From the IMG/VR virus record IMGVR_UViG_3300023087_000103, positions 1 through 23,658 of that record: a DNA stretch of 23,658 nt; one strand, given 5' to 3'. Shown in pieces: positions 3,247-22,491 of this stretch. Below the pieces are notes generated by a model, which was not told the origin of the DNA, made no database searches, and worked only from the letters and a program-made list of their open reading frames with translations. Source of the DNA: a virus. The position numbers and the translations under genes were made by a program. Every line of letters begins with the position of its first letter. Position 1 is the stretch's first letter.

Positions 3247-3615
3247 TCACGCTACAATATTTCTTTTTTCAGTTTTATTAGACGATTCTGTTCTTTTAAA
3301 ACCTAAAGTACTTGTACGTGCTCGTGAATAATTTAATACTTCTGTAACTACTGCACTTAGTTGAACTGCTTCTAATCCTTTAAGTGTGTCTAATAATTTA
3401 AAAACATTAACGTTGTCAATTTTTGCTTGTTTTAATAATACTGTTGAAACAGCAATAGCCGCAGTTTTATCAAAATTTCTATTTTCAAAAAACCCAATTA
3501 CTGCATCTACTTGGTTAGTTGGAAAACTTAATTCTTTAGAATAAAATTCGTCAAAGAAAGTTGTTATTTCTTGATCAGTATATTTTTTTGTTTTTTGTTT
3601 TGGTAAACTTGACAT
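3247..3615 (-). CDS. Conserved marine T4-like virion-region protein, 122 aa
   Basis: A small, mainly helical protein without membrane segments. The C-terminal part (VLNYSRARTSTLGFKR, about 92-107) resembles small proteins I recall beside gp4 in marine T4-like phages, but I cannot give it a T4 name; assembly or baseplate helper roles are possible. An AAGGAT ribosome site precedes the ATG. It lies 9 bases after the tube-cap gene and one base before gp4, so it is the middle gene of a three-gene unit read from the box at 4905-4912. Confidence 0.7.
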   Translation of the reverse strand: MSSLPKQKTKKYTDQEITTFFDEFYSKELSFPTNQVDAVIGFFENRNFDKTAAIAVSTVLLKQAKIDNVNVFKLLDTLKGLEAVQLSAVVTEVLNYSRARTSTLGFKRTESSNKTEKRNIVA

Positions 3616-10289: not shown

Positions 10290-11273
10290 TTAGCCAATAG
10301 TAAAGCCGTAGCCAACACCACCGCCAACTTGTTGCATAAGGTCTGCTTCAAGTTTTTCCATTTCTTGCTGTGCTTCTGCTTTTAGTGCATCACCGTTAAG
10401 TGTTGATCCGCCTTGTGGTCCTGCAATAGTAGCAAACTTTGAACGTGCTTCACCTAACATATATTTACAACCAGCAAGCGTATAATCTTTAATCCATTGA
10501 CTTGCAAGATAGTCATTTAATAGTTCGCTATCTGGACGATAATTGTAAACATATAGTAATAAATTTTCTTCTGCTCTTGGACGTTGTAATAGTGTAAGTT
10601 GCTTGGTAGTTGTGTTCCATTTAAACTCAATAAATGAACCAAACATACGTCCAACTAATTCTTGATATTGACTAAAAAAGTCATAAGTTGCTAAGCCGCC
10701 CATCTTACTACTTGATAATAAGTAAGCATTTGTATAAGCTAATCCAAAAGGGTCAAACAGTGATCCGCCACTATTTTCTCCAGTAGCAAATAATTTAATT
10801 CCAACAACATCGCCTGCATTCAACGGTGAGTTAAAAGTTAGTGTTCTTTGTGTAGAATCTGTTACAAAATTATTAGTACTACTACCATTTACTTCGGCAA
10901 TAACAGTTGCTACACTACTAAGATTATAGTTTATACTAAACGTACTTTGGTTTGCGGTTGCTGTATAAGATTGTGTAAAAATTGGTCCTGAAGTATTTCC
11001 TGTGATTGCTCTTGAGCCAATACTTCTACGAAACAGTTTACGAACTTCTATTACTTCGTTTGGTAACGTATATGTATTTTGATCAAGCACAGTCGGCATG
11101 AACATATATGATTCTTCTACAGAGTTATCAGATCTTTGTCTAAACTTAGTAAGTGCTTTCTTTAATGCAGTCTCGTAATGAATAGGATCGAGCTCAACAT
11201 CAATCATGCCGCCACCTAAGAATGCGTTAACATAATCAAATATTTCTTGTTTTTGTGTGGTTAAGTCTGCCAT
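10290..11273 (-). CDS. gp13: Neck protein gp13, with an inserted fibre-type beta module
   Basis: gp13 forms part of the collar that seals the filled head and joins the tail. The ends of this 327-aa protein fit the marine T4-like gp13 family: helical start (DYVNAFLGGGMIDVELDP, 13-30), TALKKALTKFRQRS (35-48), then FDPFGLAYTNAYLL and the C-terminal AGCKYMLGEARSKFATIAGP. Between about 100 and 163 it carries a beta-rich insert (SYTATANQSTFSINYNL ... AEVNGSS ... NAGDVVGIKLF) of a type seen as repeats in phage tail fibres. A GGAG ribosome site precedes the ATG and a GATAAATA box lies at 11296-11303. gp14 and gp15 lie on the other strand, unlike T4. Confidence 0.85.
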   Translation of the reverse strand: MADLTTQKQEIFDYVNAFLGGGMIDVELDPIHYETALKKALTKFRQRSDNSVEESYMFMPTVLDQNTYTLPNEVIEVRKLFRRSIGSRAITGNTSGPIFTQSYTATANQSTFSINYNLSSVATVIAEVNGSSTNNFVTDSTQRTLTFNSPLNAGDVVGIKLFATGENSGGSLFDPFGLAYTNAYLLSSSKMGGLATYDFFSQYQELVGRMFGSFIEFKWNTTTKQLTLLQRPRAEENLLLYVYNYRPDSELLNDYLASQWIKDYTLAGCKYMLGEARSKFATIAGPQGGSTLNGDALKAEAQQEMEKLEADLMQQVGGGVGYGFTIG

Positions 11274-11295: not shown

Positions 11296-11303
11296 TATTT
11301 ATC
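11296..11303 (-). promoter_or_regulatory. Late-promoter-like box before gp13
   Basis: On the minus strand this reads GATAAATA. It is back to back with the plus-strand box at 11305-11312; together they form a near-palindrome. Confidence 0.6.
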
Positions 11304-11304
11304 G

Positions 11305-11312
11305 AATAAATA
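11305..11312 (+). promoter_or_regulatory. Late-promoter-like box before gp14
   Basis: AATAAATA, ending on the A of a first in-frame ATG (11312). The second ATG at 11318 lies 5 bases past the box, matching the spacing seen at other leaderless-looking starts. Confidence 0.55.
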
Positions 11313-11317
11313 TGTAT

Positions 11318-12700
11318 ATGCCAAGATTAAGTTTATACAAACCGGAAAAAGGACAAGACTACACTTTCTTAGATAGACAAATCTTAGAAATGTTTACCAT
11401 TGGCGGCACCGATATACATGTTCACAAGTATTTGGGTCCGTCAAATCCTGACGAAGAAGATGCTACTGCTACTGAACCTCGCTACGATGCAGTAAAAGAA
11501 ACTAATATTCAAGATATGCTATTTCTTGAAAACAGAGATAGAAAATACGATCCGGACATTTATAGAATGCGTGGAATATACAATGTGCAAGATGTTGATT
11601 TTAATCTTTCACAATTTGGTATGTTCTTAGACAATGACACTTTATTTTTAACAATACATATTAATAGTAGTGTAAAGACACTTGGTCGCAAGATTATGAC
11701 TGGTGATGTTATTGAACTTCCTCACCAAAAAGACGAATACGCACTTAATGATTATAAAGTTGCACTTAAAAGATATTATGTTGTAGAAGATGTTAATCGT
11801 GCAAGTGAAGGGTACTCACCTACGTGGTATCCGCACTTATATAGATTAAAATTAAAACAAATTGTTGACAGTCAAGAGTTTGCTGAAATACTTGATTTGC
11901 CTGCTGATGCTGATAATGACAATGGAGATACATTGCGTGATATGCTTTCTACATATGAAAAAGAAATGCAAATTAATGATGCAGTTATAAATCAAGCTGA
12001 AGCTGATGCTCCAAAATCTGGTTATGACACAAGTCATTATTATTCTTTAGAAGTCAAGACTACTGAAACAGGTAGTGATGTAGAAGTTACGAAAGTTAAT
12101 AATGAAACTGTTACTGTTCCGCCTTCTAAAAGTGGGTATGCAGGTTATTTAGTAGGCGACGAATTAGCACCTAATGGTGAAAATTTTGGTCACGGAATAC
12201 AATTTCCAATTAATCCTGGCGTTGGTGACTTTTTCTTAAGAACAGATTTTATGCCAAAGCGTATGTTTAGATTTGACGGCGATAGATGGGTTAAAGTACA
12301 TGATGTACAGAGAATGACAATGACTAATACCAATACACGAGCAACACAAAAAGCAACATTTATTAATAACAATAACTATGTTTATAACGAAAAAGTTGCA
12401 AGCACAAGTGTAAAAGTTTCAAAAGACGATATAGTAATTTCAACATCAATTGCATATCCAGTCGATGCAAAATATCTAATGTTAAAATTTGATACACTTG
12501 AAAAAGCATATGTTATTTCAGACCATCCTGAATTAATTACATCTAATAGTGATAACACTGTTTTAATTACTTTACCTGAAGAAGCAGGAATACAAGATAG
12601 TATCGAATATGACGGAATATGGACTGTAAACTTCTATAATAATAGAGAAGCAGAGCGTCAAGGACTTTCTAAAGCACTAAGACCTAAGGCAGACAACTAA
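11318..12700 (+). CDS. gp14: Neck protein gp14, extended
   Basis: The start (LDRQILEMFTIGGTDIHVHKY, running to about residue 38 from this start) is the conserved T4-like gp14 neck motif, followed by a long beta-rich part. The protein has 460 aa against 256 for T4 gp14. The extra C-terminal part contains a GDFFLRTD ... FRFDGDRWVK module (about 303-327) like the W modules in the sheath. I placed the start at 11318 because the ATG at 11312 overlaps the promoter-like box; starting at 11312 would add two residues. No Shine-Dalgarno. The stop overlaps the next start (TAATG), so gp15 is translationally coupled. Confidence 0.82.
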   Translation: MPRLSLYKPEKGQDYTFLDRQILEMFTIGGTDIHVHKYLGPSNPDEEDATATEPRYDAVKETNIQDMLFLENRDRKYDPDIYRMRGIYNVQDVDFNLSQFGMFLDNDTLFLTIHINSSVKTLGRKIMTGDVIELPHQKDEYALNDYKVALKRYYVVEDVNRASEGYSPTWYPHLYRLKLKQIVDSQEFAEILDLPADADNDNGDTLRDMLSTYEKEMQINDAVINQAEADAPKSGYDTSHYYSLEVKTTETGSDVEVTKVNNETVTVPPSKSGYAGYLVGDELAPNGENFGHGIQFPINPGVGDFFLRTDFMPKRMFRFDGDRWVKVHDVQRMTMTNTNTRATQKATFINNNNYVYNEKVASTSVKVSKDDIVISTSIAYPVDAKYLMLKFDTLEKAYVISDHPELITSNSDNTVLITLPEEAGIQDSIEYDGIWTVNFYNNREAERQGLSKALRPKADN

Positions 12701-17564: not shown

Positions 17565-18200
17565 ATGTATAACATAAATTGGAGTAATCAGAAAAAACCT
17601 CAACCCGAAAAAATACCGTTCTATGATCATAAAAATGTAGCACCTAAAGTAGTTGTTGGTTTAGATCGAGACGGCGTTATTAATGTTGATAGAGGTACCT
17701 ATACATATCGTCCTGAAGATTTTGAACCAATTCCTGGAAGTCTTGAGGCAGTTGCTAAAATTAGACAACTTGGTCACAAGATCGCAATTATTACAAATCA
17801 AGCAGGCATTGGTAAGGGATTATATACACCCGAAGATGTAGATAAAACACACGACTATATGTTTAAATTATTAGGTGAAGCTGGCTGTGCAAGTATTGAT
17901 GCAATTTATTATAGCGAAACAAATTTAAGAAATGATATATTTGCAAAACCTAATACAGGAATGTTTAAAAAATGTGAAGAAGAAAATCCTTATATTAAAT
18001 TTAAGAAAGGATTCTTTGTTGGTGATAAAATTTCTGATTTAAAAGCCGCACATAGGATAGGTGCAAAACCTATTCTTGTAAGAACAGGTCACGGGGAAGA
18101 AACTATTAAAGAACTTAATAAATTTAGTAATAGAGATCTTAAAAAACGAGTATCTATATTTAATGATTTAAAAGAGTTTGCTAATTGGCTTGATCGATAG
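17565..18200 (+). CDS. gmhB: D-glycero-D-manno-heptose-1,7-bisphosphate phosphatase-like HAD enzyme
   Basis: GmhB removes the C7 phosphate between the two HldE reactions. The 211-aa HAD protein shows motif I DRDGVIN (34-40), the TNQAGIGKG loop (77-85), K128 in AKPNTGM (127-133) and GDKISDLKAA (153-162), the order and spacing of GmhB. An N-terminal extension of about 28 residues is added. The Cys/His zinc loop of E. coli GmhB (before the KP-GM motif) is absent: here the stretch reads YYSETNLRNDIFAKP. Histidinol-phosphate phosphatase and other D,D-heptose-1,7-bisphosphatase-like HADs share the fold, so the call leans on hldE and hldD in the same operon. Its end overlaps the opposing oxygenase gene by 20 bases. 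Confidence 0.85.
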   Translation: MYNINWSNQKKPQPEKIPFYDHKNVAPKVVVGLDRDGVINVDRGTYTYRPEDFEPIPGSLEAVAKIRQLGHKIAIITNQAGIGKGLYTPEDVDKTHDYMFKLLGEAGCASIDAIYYSETNLRNDIFAKPNTGMFKKCEEENPYIKFKKGFFVGDKISDLKAAHRIGAKPILVRTGHGEETIKELNKFSNRDLKKRVSIFNDLKEFANWLDR

Positions 18201-18783
18201 ATTCTATACCAAAATTTGCACTTACTGAATATCTTATTTCGTCAGATTTATTATATGTAACAAAATGATCTAATGTACTTGGAAAGAATATAATCTCTCC
18301 TTCTTCTAAATTAGTATCAAAAGATTTTCCAAATTGATTTGTATTAAAAAGTAAGTTTGTTTCTGCTGGAAATGGTTCATACGAACTATTATAAAATATA
18401 AACTTACTTTCAGAATCTTTTGGAACGTGCAACGAATAAGCACAACTAAAAACATTCTTATCACCAGTATGACAATGTACGTCTTGATGTTGTCCTTTAG
18501 AATACCCGTTAGCCCAGGCAGATCCGCCAATAGTTGCTAAATCTGTCTTAAAAGAAATAGATTCTAAATAAGAATGTAAAATAGGGTGTATACTTGTAAA
18601 AAATAAATCCCAATTAATATTAATATCTGTTCTTCCGTGTGTAGTATAACAGTCGCAATACCAATCATCGCTCGGACTAAGAATATTATCTTGTTTTAAT
18701 TGAGATAAAAGATCTTCTTTTATCTCATTATGGTTAGGAATTTTTGTTTTATAAATTGGAATTCCAAAAATACTAAATGTCAT
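18181..18783 (-). CDS. 2-oxoglutarate/Fe(II) oxygenase-like protein, second copy
   Basis: A 200-aa protein with FGIPIYKTKIP at the start, typical of marine phage 2OG oxygenases. AWANGYSKGQHQDVHCHTG (89-107) offers H99-x-D101 and H103/H105; EGEIIFFPSTLDHFVTYN (161-178) supplies the distal H173; R184 in IRYSVSANF would bind 2-oxoglutarate. It differs clearly from the first copy and is not a recent duplicate. Its start overlaps the carbamoyltransferase stop by 11 bases, so it is the last gene of the leftward GT9, carbamoyltransferase and oxygenase unit. Substrate unknown; a carbamoylated sugar or the acceptor protein is a contextual guess. Confidence 0.8.
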   Translation of the reverse strand: MTFSIFGIPIYKTKIPNHNEIKEDLLSQLKQDNILSPSDDWYCDCYTTHGRTDININWDLFFTSIHPILHSYLESISFKTDLATIGGSAWANGYSKGQHQDVHCHTGDKNVFSCAYSLHVPKDSESKFIFYNSSYEPFPAETNLLFNTNQFGKSFDTNLEEGEIIFFPSTLDHFVTYNKSDEIRYSVSANFGIESIDQAN

Positions 18784-20572
18784 TTTTAATCTTAATCATC
18801 TTTTTAAATTCTGGTAAAAATAAGTATTCTATATCACTTTTCTTTAAAGTCCACATTGCATCATATAATGTTTCAACTAATGGATCGCCTCCCAAATTAA
18901 ATGATGTATTGAATACAATTGGAACACCTGTCTTTTCTTTAAATGCTTTAATAATATTGTAATAATGAGGATTTTGTTCTTTATTAACAGTTTGAATACG
19001 ACAAGTTCCGTCTACGTGAATAATAGCAGGAATCTTTTCTTCAATGCCTGGCTGACAGTTTACAGCATACATCATTGTAGGTGAACTTTTCATACCACGC
19101 AAATCAAACCATTCGTGTACATCTTCTTCTAAGATACTACCTGCAAACGGACGGAAATATTCTCGACGCTTAACAGTATTAACAAAATCTTTGCCATTAG
19201 GATCAGTTGGATCATAAAGAATACTTCTATTGCCTAAAGCTCTTGGACCGTTCTCAGATCTTCCTTGATATACTGTAACAATATTTCTGTCTGTGATTAA
19301 ATCTACAAGATCTTTATAATCTGCATCAGTAACTTCGGCATTAAATTGATCTGCAATTTGTTCTACATCTTCAGTTGTGTAATTGTAAGTAGGACCGTAA
19401 TAAACAGTATCGACTTGTTTATTAATTGTCATATCTTTTGTTATAGTACGATAAGCCCATAATGCGGCGCCTATTGCTGTTCCGCCGTCATTAGACACCG
19501 GTTCGACATATAAATTAATACCTTCGTCTTTTAATTGCTCTAAATACCAATAGTTAGCAACACAATTTAATCCGTATCCTCCAGAAACAACTACATTGTT
19601 ACATCCAGTCATTTCAACTGCTTTCCTAATAACATCTAATGATGCTTGTTGAGTTTGAGTTTGAATAGCATATGCCATGTCACGTCTATTTTGACTTTTA
19701 GTACAATCTTCTCTGTCAGGTTCTTCTCGTAAAACACTGCTAATCATTTCGTTAACAATTGAACCATTGGGATATTTTGGAATAAACAAGTTACGATTAG
19801 TTAACGGAGTTGGCCAATCAATATTTTCATCAAAGACTTTTGGGATCATATTGTTTTCTTTACCGTATGGAAATAATCCCATAGTCTTTCCAGCTTCAAT
19901 TGCGTCCCAGCCGCAGTATTCTGTTACTGCTTCATATGCTTTAACAATGCCTGCTCTATCTGAGCATGATACTTGATACATTCCAGTATCATTACCAAAA
20001 ATATCAGTGTCTTTGTTTTCGTTTATAAATGTAGGTAGATAATCTCTACAACCCATTGTTTTATATAAAGTTTGAATTTGGTCTGGATATGAACATTTAT
20101 AGATAGTTTCAGTTTCCCACATATATCTTGGAGAATCTTCATAATCCATAGGAAAACATGTGCCAGCGCCATCAATAATAACTGCTGTTGCTTCTTCAAA
20201 TCCAGAATTATAAAATGCAAGTGCGGCATGCATTTTATGATGTAGTTTTGCAGTATCAATTATTTGAGGGTGTGCATCAAGTGGATGTCCTTTTTCAATT
20301 AGTCCAAGTTTCCTTGCAAATCCTGTAATATAATCTTCATTTGTATAGTCAATACGACCAGCAGTATCGCTAAGTGTTTGTGTATGTGATACAACCAAAT
20401 AATCTAATTTATTTGTATATTCTAAAATTTTTAAAATAGATGCTAATGGTCCTCCATCATATTTGGTTCTTGTGAGTCTTTCTTCTTCCATAGCAAATAC
20501 AATTTCGCCATCTTTAAGTAAACACACACCAGCATTATGACCTCGAGCTACGCCTGCAATCCATTGACTCAT
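18773..20572 (-). CDS. NodU/CmcH-type O-carbamoyltransferase
   Basis: These enzymes move a carbamoyl group from carbamoyl phosphate, through carbamoyl-adenylate, onto a hydroxyl, often of a sugar. The 599-aa protein has both halves. The N-terminal Kae1-like domain shows GHNAGVCLLKDG (11-22), EEERLTR (29-35), the metal-site LHHKMHAA (110-117), VIIDGAG (131-137), VVSGGYGLNCVAN (328-340) and PVSNDGGTAIGAALW (358-372). The C-terminal domain shows YQGRSENGPRALGNRS (435-450), REYFRPFAGSI (470-480), HVDGTCRIQTV (519-529) and VFNTSFNLGGDP (553-564). I chose the ATG at 20572 because AGGAGG lies 8 bases upstream and it begins one base after the GT9 stop. The neighbour context suggests it modifies the transferred sugar. 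Confidence 0.92.
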   Translation of the reverse strand: MSQWIAGVARGHNAGVCLLKDGEIVFAMEEERLTRTKYDGGPLASILKILEYTNKLDYLVVSHTQTLSDTAGRIDYTNEDYITGFARKLGLIEKGHPLDAHPQIIDTAKLHHKMHAALAFYNSGFEEATAVIIDGAGTCFPMDYEDSPRYMWETETIYKCSYPDQIQTLYKTMGCRDYLPTFINENKDTDIFGNDTGMYQVSCSDRAGIVKAYEAVTEYCGWDAIEAGKTMGLFPYGKENNMIPKVFDENIDWPTPLTNRNLFIPKYPNGSIVNEMISSVLREEPDREDCTKSQNRRDMAYAIQTQTQQASLDVIRKAVEMTGCNNVVVSGGYGLNCVANYWYLEQLKDEGINLYVEPVSNDGGTAIGAALWAYRTITKDMTINKQVDTVYYGPTYNYTTEDVEQIADQFNAEVTDADYKDLVDLITDRNIVTVYQGRSENGPRALGNRSILYDPTDPNGKDFVNTVKRREYFRPFAGSILEEDVHEWFDLRGMKSSPTMMYAVNCQPGIEEKIPAIIHVDGTCRIQTVNKEQNPHYYNIIKAFKEKTGVPIVFNTSFNLGGDPLVETLYDAMWTLKKSDIEYLFLPEFKKMIKIKNDI

Positions 20573-20573
20573 A

Positions 20574-21581
20574 TTAATGTCCTCCTGTATGGGAACAAGT
20601 TGAATTATTATCAAATTGATTCTGTGTTGGTTGTTGTGGTGCTGAACGCTCACTTTTACCTACACGTTTTTTAATAGAATTAACTATACTATCAATTTGT
20701 TCTTGTGTCAAGTCCATTGCTTTATCATTTAATCTGTCAGGTTCTTCTTCCATTGATACTCTAATAGGACTATATACACGTCTTCCTTCGCCAACATCAA
20801 AGATTTCAATATCTTTGTCATTTACGTATGATGTGTTAATTGGATATGTACTACCAGTAATAACTGTAGCAGTGGTGCCAAGTGATTTAGCAATATGTTG
20901 TCCTACACTGTCACATCCTAAGAAGTGATCTGCGGCATCAATTACTCCTCCCCAAATTCTAATATCTGGAATTTCTGGTTGTGCGAGAGGAGCTTCGTTA
21001 GGATCTTCATTATACATGTTAAGCGGCAATTCGCTCATTATAATAATTCCGTATTCTTTTTTAAGTTCGTTAGCGATTGCTAACATATCTTCTACGCGAA
21101 AACTTCTCGATGTTTGATCTATTAATGTTTGTTCAACTCCTCTGCCAAAAGGTTGAATTACAATTACTTTACTTAAACCAGTAACTGCTTTAACTTCGTC
21201 AACAACACTTTTACCGTGTAACTTTTCTGATTTATTAAGATATATTTGGGGAATATGTAAATCTCTAATACCTTTTTTATTAATTTCAATATCAAAGGCT
21301 TGTGCAATACTGCATTTTTGATTATAATACTCCCAAATACGATATGGTTCTGGACTTACACAAGTTCTATCTTTAATAAAGTTTTCAAATAATCCTTTGT
21401 GCCAAACGTCATATGCACGTTTATGCAATGTAGGATGTCCTTTATAGAAATCAGTTCCTCCTTCACAGACAATAATAAAATCATCCTCAGGATTTTCTTT
21501 TTCAAAAAGTTCAAGTGCGGGAATTGATGTTATAACACGGCCGGCGCCGCCGTTAATAAAAAATGCTGTTGATCTTGACAT
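20574..21581 (-). CDS. GT9/heptosyltransferase-like glycosyltransferase
   Basis: The protein (335 aa) has the two-part layout of glycosyltransferase family 9, the LPS ADP-heptosyltransferase family. At the start, GGAGRVITSIPALELF (11-26) matches the G-D-x-(L/V)-x-T-x-P-(A/L)-L segment. A linker leads to the second Rossmann domain with VIVIQPFGRG (139-148). DAADHFLGCDSVGQHIAKSLG (215-235) corresponds to the donor-binding DTG-x-x-H-x-A-x-A motif, here DSVGQHIA. The last 25 residues are Gln/Asn/Ser-rich and probably disordered. The next genes (1 base away) are the carbamoyltransferase and an oxygenase. ADP-heptose as donor is inferred from hldE/hldD nearby; related GT9-like proteins also act on proteins. 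AAGGATAG lies upstream, inside an inverted repeat. Confidence 0.78.
   Translation of the reverse strand: MSRSTAFFINGGAGRVITSIPALELFEKENPEDDFIIVCEGGTDFYKGHPTLHKRAYDVWHKGLFENFIKDRTCVSPEPYRIWEYYNQKCSIAQAFDIEINKKGIRDLHIPQIYLNKSEKLHGKSVVDEVKAVTGLSKVIVIQPFGRGVEQTLIDQTSRSFRVEDMLAIANELKKEYGIIIMSELPLNMYNEDPNEAPLAQPEIPDIRIWGGVIDAADHFLGCDSVGQHIAKSLGTTATVITGSTYPINTSYVNDKDIEIFDVGEGRRVYSPIRVSMEEEPDRLNDKAMDLTQEQIDSIVNSIKKRVGKSERSAPQQPTQNQFDNNSTCSHTGGH
20581..20586 (-). promoter_or_regulatory. Shine-Dalgarno that fixes the carbamoyltransferase start
   Basis: AGGAGG on the minus strand, 8 bases before the ATG at 20572, inside the 3' end of the GT9 gene. It excludes the upstream in-frame start at 20653. Confidence 0.9.
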
Positions 21582-21584
21582 AGG

Positions 21585-21639
21585 TAAACACTATCCTTAC
21601 TAATATTCAAAAATATTTATAGTTACAGGATAGTGTTTA
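21585..21639 (-). promoter_or_regulatory. 13-bp inverted repeat with a late promoter in its loop, before the GT9 gene
   Basis: TAAACACTATCCT (21585-21597) and its exact complement (21627-21639) flank 29 bases. The loop holds TATAAATA. On the minus strand the second arm carries AGGATAG, the likely ribosome site of the GT9 gene. Read-through RNA from the upstream genes would contain both arms and mask this site; RNA started in the loop would contain only the second arm. There is no T tract, so it is not a normal terminator. Confidence 0.75.
21614..21621 (-). promoter_or_regulatory. TATAAATA late promoter for the GT9/carbamoyltransferase unit
   Basis: On the minus strand this is an exact copy of the T4 late -10 consensus TATAAATA, within the loop of the inverted repeat at 21585-21639. 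The expected start is near 21607. Confidence 0.75.
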
Positions 21640-21651
21640 AATTAGATCTGG

Positions 21652-22491
21652 CTATTCAGGAATGTCGTCGCTTTGTCTTATAAATCCGGTATCAAGACCG
21701 TAATCAGTATCTATTTCTTTACATTCTGGCCAGCAACTGTCAACATACAATAAATCTATATCTGCAAGGGCAGTTGGCATATTTCTTAAAAGTTCTTTAT
21801 ACTCTTCAATTTTTTCTGCTACTGCTGGATCATGCTCTTTCATTGCAAGGTGCATTGCATCAACATCTTGCAGTCTTTCAGTTCTTTCCATTCTAATATC
21901 ATTCCAAGACTGCGGTTGACCTAATGTATCTATAGATGATCTTTTATAAAGTTCAACTTCTCCAGTTTCAAAATTGTATGTAGTTAGTTTGTCATCATAC
22001 AAATGATCTGGATGAATAGGGTATTCATATTCAAAGAAACCATAACCCGGAATAACAGGTGACGGAATAGTTTTTCTTCCTGGAGTTTCTAACCAGTCGT
22101 CAAAATCTTTATAATTATCATGGTAGTCAGAGAGTACTTCGGCTTCTAATGGATTTTTTGTTGCATCAAGTTTTACAAGTTCAATTTCGCCAGGAATATC
22201 TAAAAAATCGTTAGTTTGTTCTCTTGCTTCTTGTTCTCTCAATACAGTTTCAAACTTTCCTCTTTCTTCTGGAGTATCTTCACCTTTATTAACATAAAGA
22301 TACAAGTATTTAGGACCTATATATCTTCCATTTACTGTTTCAGTTGCAGGTCCATCTAAATAGTTTTCTGAAGGACATTCGTACGTGTAATCAACTTCTA
22401 CCCATTCAGTACCTAATTCGTCAGTATCTGTTAATGTGCGATAATCGACTACAGTACTTTCAAGTTCATCGTTGTTTAAGTTTTCAGCCAT
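21652..22491 (-). CDS. Tail assembly chaperone-like protein, 279 aa
   Basis: The last third (about 197-255) follows the plan of phage tail fibre assembly chaperones: WNDIRMERTERLQDVD, then an acidic helix, IEEYKELLRNMPTALADID (227-245) and a WP pair (SCWPE), like the R-xx-R-xx-LL ... YR-xx-LRD-P ... WP pattern. The first two thirds are acidic, aromatic and of unknown fold, with several YEYPIHPDHLY-type segments. It lies directly after the Cys/Gly-rich protein (4 bases) and before the GT9 unit; fibre chaperones commonly follow the fibre gene they serve. A GGAG site overlaps the previous gene's end. The function is inferred from this partial pattern and its location. Confidence 0.65.
   Translation of the reverse strand: MAENLNNDELESTVVDYRTLTDTDELGTEWVEVDYTYECPSENYLDGPATETVNGRYIGPKYLYLYVNKGEDTPEERGKFETVLREQEAREQTNDFLDIPGEIELVKLDATKNPLEAEVLSDYHDNYKDFDDWLETPGRKTIPSPVIPGYGFFEYEYPIHPDHLYDDKLTTYNFETGEVELYKRSSIDTLGQPQSWNDIRMERTERLQDVDAMHLAMKEHDPAVAEKIEEYKELLRNMPTALADIDLLYVDSCWPECKEIDTDYGLDTGFIRQSDDIPE

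Follow-up and report, generated by a model that had tools for sequence, protein, structure and literature searches.

Translational control by an inhibitory helix lying on the ribosome site of a late gene is a published mechanism in bacteriophage T4, demonstrated for gene e and also reported for soc, 49 and I-TevI (PMC3014915; PMC2988022). These T4 examples sit in RNA on which early and middle genes are found as well (PMC2988022), and for the homing endonucleases the late promoter is so positioned that part of the helix is missing from late RNA (PMC2988022; PMC3014915). A different intergenic element of T4-like phages, the promoter early-stem loop (PeSL) cassette, is cited as a promoter-terminator motif with an early promoter (PMC4503421). 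The late promoter reported for marine cyanomyoviruses is NATAAATA (PMC2984593). The locus described here lies in a 23.7-kb record of a marine T4-like virus; we call the whole record the window, and it has tail sheath, tail tube and head-tail genes of T4 type. At this locus there is probably a translation lock coupled to a promoter, as in T4 gene e, such that a unit headed by a GT9-like ORF would be translated solely from its own late promoter.

The intergenic region, in minus-strand order, runs from the stop codon of a tail fibre assembly-like gene (21654-21652) across a short gap to TAAACACTATCCT, GTAAC, TATAAATA, TTTTTGAATATTAGTA, AGGATAGTGTTTA, CCT and finally the ATG at 21581 (Table 1). 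An earlier note on this DNA had pointed to a perfect 13-bp inverted repeat around an exact TATAAATA, and this is confirmed: TAAACACTATCCT (21585-21597) and AGGATAGTGTTTA (21627-21639) are 100% complementary, and the 29-nt loop between them holds the only TATAAATA in the window, where composition predicts about 4.5. Perfect inverted repeats of at least 13 nt whose loop does not exceed 60 nt are expected 0.03 times per window (200 dinucleotide shuffles) against the one observed, and no second copy of the arm sequence was found in the window when two mismatches were allowed. In minus-strand reading the second arm begins with AGGATAG, and the ATG stands 3 nt beyond the arm. The spacing from AGGA to ATG is 12 nt, above the usual optimum, which is a caveat against a ribosome-site lock. 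The loop measures 29 nt and the stem is not followed by a U-run, so it is no classical terminator; nor did a search of the minus strand from the upstream gene to the hairpin find a terminator-like site.

Table 1. Features of the hairpin locus and of the genes on either side of it (window coordinates).
Feature	Coordinates	Strand	Remarks
2OG-Fe(II) oxygenase, final gene of the unit	18181..18783	-	
Nol-like carbamoyltransferase	18773..20572	-	likely start codon ATG, 20572, one base beyond the first ORF's stop; own AGGAGG
Regulated ORF, 335 aa, phrog_8954 (unknown function), GT9-like glycosyltransferase	20574..21581	-	weak match
Hairpin 3' arm, AGGAUAGUGUUUA	21585..21597	-	holds the ribosome-binding AGGA; retained in late RNA
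Inferred late transcription start	21608..21608	-	sixth base past the box, T4 spacing
Late promoter box of T4 type, TATAAATA, within the loop	21614..21621	-	NATAAATA box kept here in nearly all relatives
Hairpin 5' arm as RNA, UAAACACUAUCCU	21627..21639	-	upstream of the inferred late start, hence missing from late RNA
Upstream gene, tail fibre assembly-like	21652..22491	-	its read-through RNA would carry the locked site

The identity of the first ORF is less firm than its position. The earlier note had called it GT9 outright, a claim that the profile comparison weakens: the window protein matches PF01075 (Pfam glycosyltransferase family 9) with E 0.17 and 11.6 bits, below the curated cut-off of 22, and weak matches occur in nine of 39 family members, the best with E 0.0041. 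We treat the GT9-like assignment as a weakly supported lead from sequence similarity. The genomic setting is recurrent, and in cultured Kyanoviridae (e.g., S-SSM7, S-CAM3, P-SSM2) the same gene is followed by a carbamoyltransferase, behind tail-fibre or hypothetical genes. Two contigs, L001 (48.8 kb) and L002, are nearly identical to the window (99.8-99.95% over the stretches compared), and on L001 the upstream genes extend from one for a baseplate-wedge-like protein across a 4004-aa ORF; the genes upstream of the hairpin are baseplate, tail fibre and fibre assembly genes, presumably late themselves. A gp55-type late sigma factor (phrog_234) is encoded on the related long contigs G002, G004 and G005, with matches of about 1e-22 or better; G001, which represents the window's species and is a fragment, gave no match. 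Relatives of the ORF (L458-L464, 47-54% identity) lie on contigs that had been assigned to MAGs of Neomarinimicrobiota, Rhodobacteraceae, Flavobacteriales and Euryarchaeota. One of these contigs is 335 kb long; they are either phage contigs in these bins or carry host copies.

As RNA, the 55-nt element folds with -18.1 kcal/mol (z = -5.5). To describe its effect on the ribosome site we used an opening energy, the free energy required to open the start codon together with the last 16 nt before it, and compared a read-through RNA with one starting 6 nt past the box. For the null, shuffles were confined to the sequence upstream of the box, because that is the part that late RNA lacks. The earlier note had proposed that the arms pair over AGGATAG in read-through RNA, that RNA begun in the loop leaves the site free, and that T4 e is a precedent, and the predictions bear out all three. 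The window requires 18.4 kcal/mol as read-through and 4.4 with the inferred late start, against 7.9 +/- 2.2 for upstream shuffles (z 4.75, p 0.001); T4 e, the positive control in the same test, behaves alike (15.2 vs 0.85 kcal/mol, z 3.6, p 0.008). The window result is robust between 15 and 37 C, the effect being larger at 15-25 C, and also to longer upstream context and to shifting the start by a few bases. Against a lock counts the 4.4 kcal/mol still needed in the late-start RNA, which is above the value for T4 e. The test gave no effect for T4 I-TevIII with its nearest upstream box; either known cases can escape it, or the start annotated for this gene is not the relevant one.

Comparison across the gene family extends the prediction beyond a single locus. 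A first scan yielded 80 relatives and two others added more, giving 51 distinct leaders, 47 of which have a late-type box, and nearly all relatives have a NATAAATA-type box in the corresponding position. As controls we took 61 leaders of other late-promoter genes on the same contigs. Seven of the 47 family leaders reach p <= 0.025 (Fisher combined p 3e-4) as against two of the 61 controls (combined p 0.90), and the two sets differ with p 6e-4. Among short leaders, in which late RNA extends no more than 28 nt ahead of the start, the median drop in opening energy is 6.6 kcal/mol for the family and 1.4 for the controls (p 2e-6). The arms themselves differ by lineage: TAAACACTATCCT in L001, TTTTTGTAATTA in L004, GATTAAC/GTTAATC in L054, and in L018 TCAAATTAC, which pairs over a TTG start.

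The earlier note had also looked to arm covariation in relatives, and here the outcome is divided. L004 (with L011) rebuilds a strong lock, but its arms and those of the window are not homologous, the same lock being made from other sequence, and the remaining lineages of the window's clade, L003, L009 and L014, show little or none. Positional covariation within one alignment was accordingly discarded, pair counting being meaningless for non-homologous arms. Natural arm variation is absent within the window's species because its contigs are near-identical. A scan of viral_contigs for arm patterns with a variable gap, using short patterns that proved too permissive, placed a late box between the arms in the two known contigs alone among the matches listed. 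On the gene tree the lock changes state about nine times, with a z threshold of 1.75 of our own choosing. No lock was found in the homologues of the cultured cyanophages S-SSM7, Sf-FS3, S-CAM3 and P-SSM2; upstream of the gene, Sf-FS3, S-CAM3 and P-SSM2 have variant boxes alone and S-SSM7 has none. Across the gene family, then, the lock is not universal, nor is it inherited as a sequence.

Our proposed mechanism is as follows. Read-through RNA from the upstream tail genes would carry both arms, which on pairing would bury AGGA together with the nucleotides from there to the AUG and so block ribosomes at the GT9-like ORF. A phage late RNA polymerase with a gp55-type sigma factor would initiate at TATAAATA in the loop, and the resulting RNA, beginning between the arms and lacking the first, would leave the ribosome site open. 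The GT9-like/carbamoyltransferase/2OG-oxygenase unit would in this way be made only when its own late promoter fires. As to purpose, we lean towards insulation: the lock may shield the unit from tail-operon read-through, a role we favour over timing because the upstream neighbours are tail genes and probably late. An intrinsic terminator lies upstream in L003, L004, L009 and L014, and the window's lineage, with the strongest lock, is alone in this five-lineage clade in having none. This fits insulation, although it was noticed afterwards and is not significant family-wide: a general trade-off of terminator for lock was rejected, as there is no clear association over all leaders (p 0.48). With one far clade dropped post hoc the association has p 0.06, and a sign test on four independent pairs on supported branches was not significant.

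The strongest alternative, which we regard as unlikely but worth serious attention, accepts the same lock and makes its role strictly temporal, with early or middle RNA that crosses the locus being silenced until the late phase. Such a role is documented for T4 e and I-TevI, and the earlier note had described a 'stage-specific' switch. That description is not well supported, since the baseplate, tail fibre and fibre assembly genes upstream are expected to be late, which leaves the division into early and late RNA unsupported, and no early promoter reading into them was identified. A T4-style contrast between early and late RNA may not apply because the upstream genes are probably late.

Two further readings dispense with translation, and each seems to us improbable. 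The inverted repeat could be a DNA operator, its arms forming two half-sites for a dimeric repressor or activator around the late promoter. The symmetry about a promoter would suit this, as would a 16-nt palindrome, TTTTGTAATTACAAAA, directly after the box in L003, L004 and L011. Yet the half-sites vary between lineages whereas pairing over the ribosome site is enriched, the arm sequence does not recur in the pieces of G001 examined, and near-matches to TTTTGTAATTACAAAA in G002 are, among the matches listed, unlinked to late boxes. Equally, the hairpin could be a weak attenuator, an RNA processing site or a 5' stabiliser that does not lock translation. A stable 13-bp intergenic stem invites that view, and the window has no detected upstream terminator, unlike other close lineages; but the stem lacks the U-run and tight loop of a terminator, and pairing in the family is directed at the ribosome site and at times at the start codon too.

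That the repeat arose by chance in an AT-rich leader we consider very unlikely: the close lineages L003 and L009 do manage without a strong one, but the shuffle expectation for such repeats, the targeted opening-energy test and the enrichment at family level all speak against it. We reject an invertible promoter flipped by a recombinase at the 13-bp repeats, which would explain inverted repeats on both sides of a promoter, since the orientation is identical in all three records and known invertible promoters are far longer than a 29-bp segment.

Several other promoters and leaders drew attention. Within the window, divergent NATAAATA boxes overlap at 11296-11312 (minus 11303, plus 11305). On one side of them is a head-tail adaptor gene (10290-11273, minus), on the other a virion structural gene (11312-12700, plus), and the pair is likely to form a bidirectional late promoter; in relative L210 a comparable dyad covers the late box, its arms separated by GAAA. 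The window shares CCAGATCT (window 21642-21650), located some 25-30 nt before the late box, with L003 and L014, and CCAGATC is common to L057 and L059; either may be an upstream promoter element. In the window's species, the leader of a 1598-aa baseplate-wedge-like gene (L199 of G001, around 2920-2965) gives 11.8 vs 0.4 kcal/mol (z 5.3, 100 shuffles) and looks locked as well. Finally, in many of the L021-L047 leaders (e.g., L025 at 3490-3512, L045 and L034) the late box is followed, still ahead of the start, by a sigma70-like promoter, TTGCAA-17-TATAAT. A dyad spans the -10 region of this promoter, and its sequence differs from lineage to lineage (e.g., ATATGCTATTATAATAGCATAT and AGTATTATAATGTTAATACT). 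Here it is RNA from the sigma70-like promoter that would lose the first arm, reversing the logic of the late lock.

More broadly, we tentatively suggest, as a possibility we would not yet back over its negation, that marine T4-like phages are under recurrent selection to translate this sugar-modification unit, behind tail-fibre genes, from its own late promoter only, the lock being re-invented with unrelated arms so that the logic of regulation persists although the RNA sequence that carries it is exchanged. The device seems to be rebuilt repeatedly before one gene, which offers a comparative system in which to ask why such enzymes should be kept silent in read-through RNA.

Among described systems, T4 e is the closest to this locus. 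Both have TATAAATA upstream of the ribosome site, the first helix strand upstream of the late start and the helix over the ribosome site, and the predicted energies are similar. They differ in the gene controlled (lysozyme there, a GT9-like enzyme here), in the number of late boxes (two in T4 e, one in the window), in the long Shine-Dalgarno spacing of the window, and in the upstream genes, which are early and middle in T4 and tail genes in the window. T4 soc, gene 49, I-TevI, I-TevII, I-TevIII and segB, and mobE of Aeh1, share an inhibitory helix on the ribosome site of a late gene, but concern other genes in other phage groups. PeSL cassettes resemble the locus in combining a promoter and a stem-loop in an intergenic region; as cited, they pair an early promoter with a terminator stem, whereas the window has a late promoter within a non-terminator stem, and the late box, the missing U-run and the 29-nt loop rule out such a cassette here. 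In the open literature searched, coverage of which was incomplete, we found no account of such a device either from marine T4-like phages or at a gene for sugar modification. Its presence here would extend a classical T4 control device both to uncultured marine T4-like phages and to a unit for modifying sugars of the virion or host surface. We conclude that this is probably a ribosome-site lock of the T4 e/soc/I-TevI type, new for the phrog_8954 GT9-like family in marine T4-like phages.
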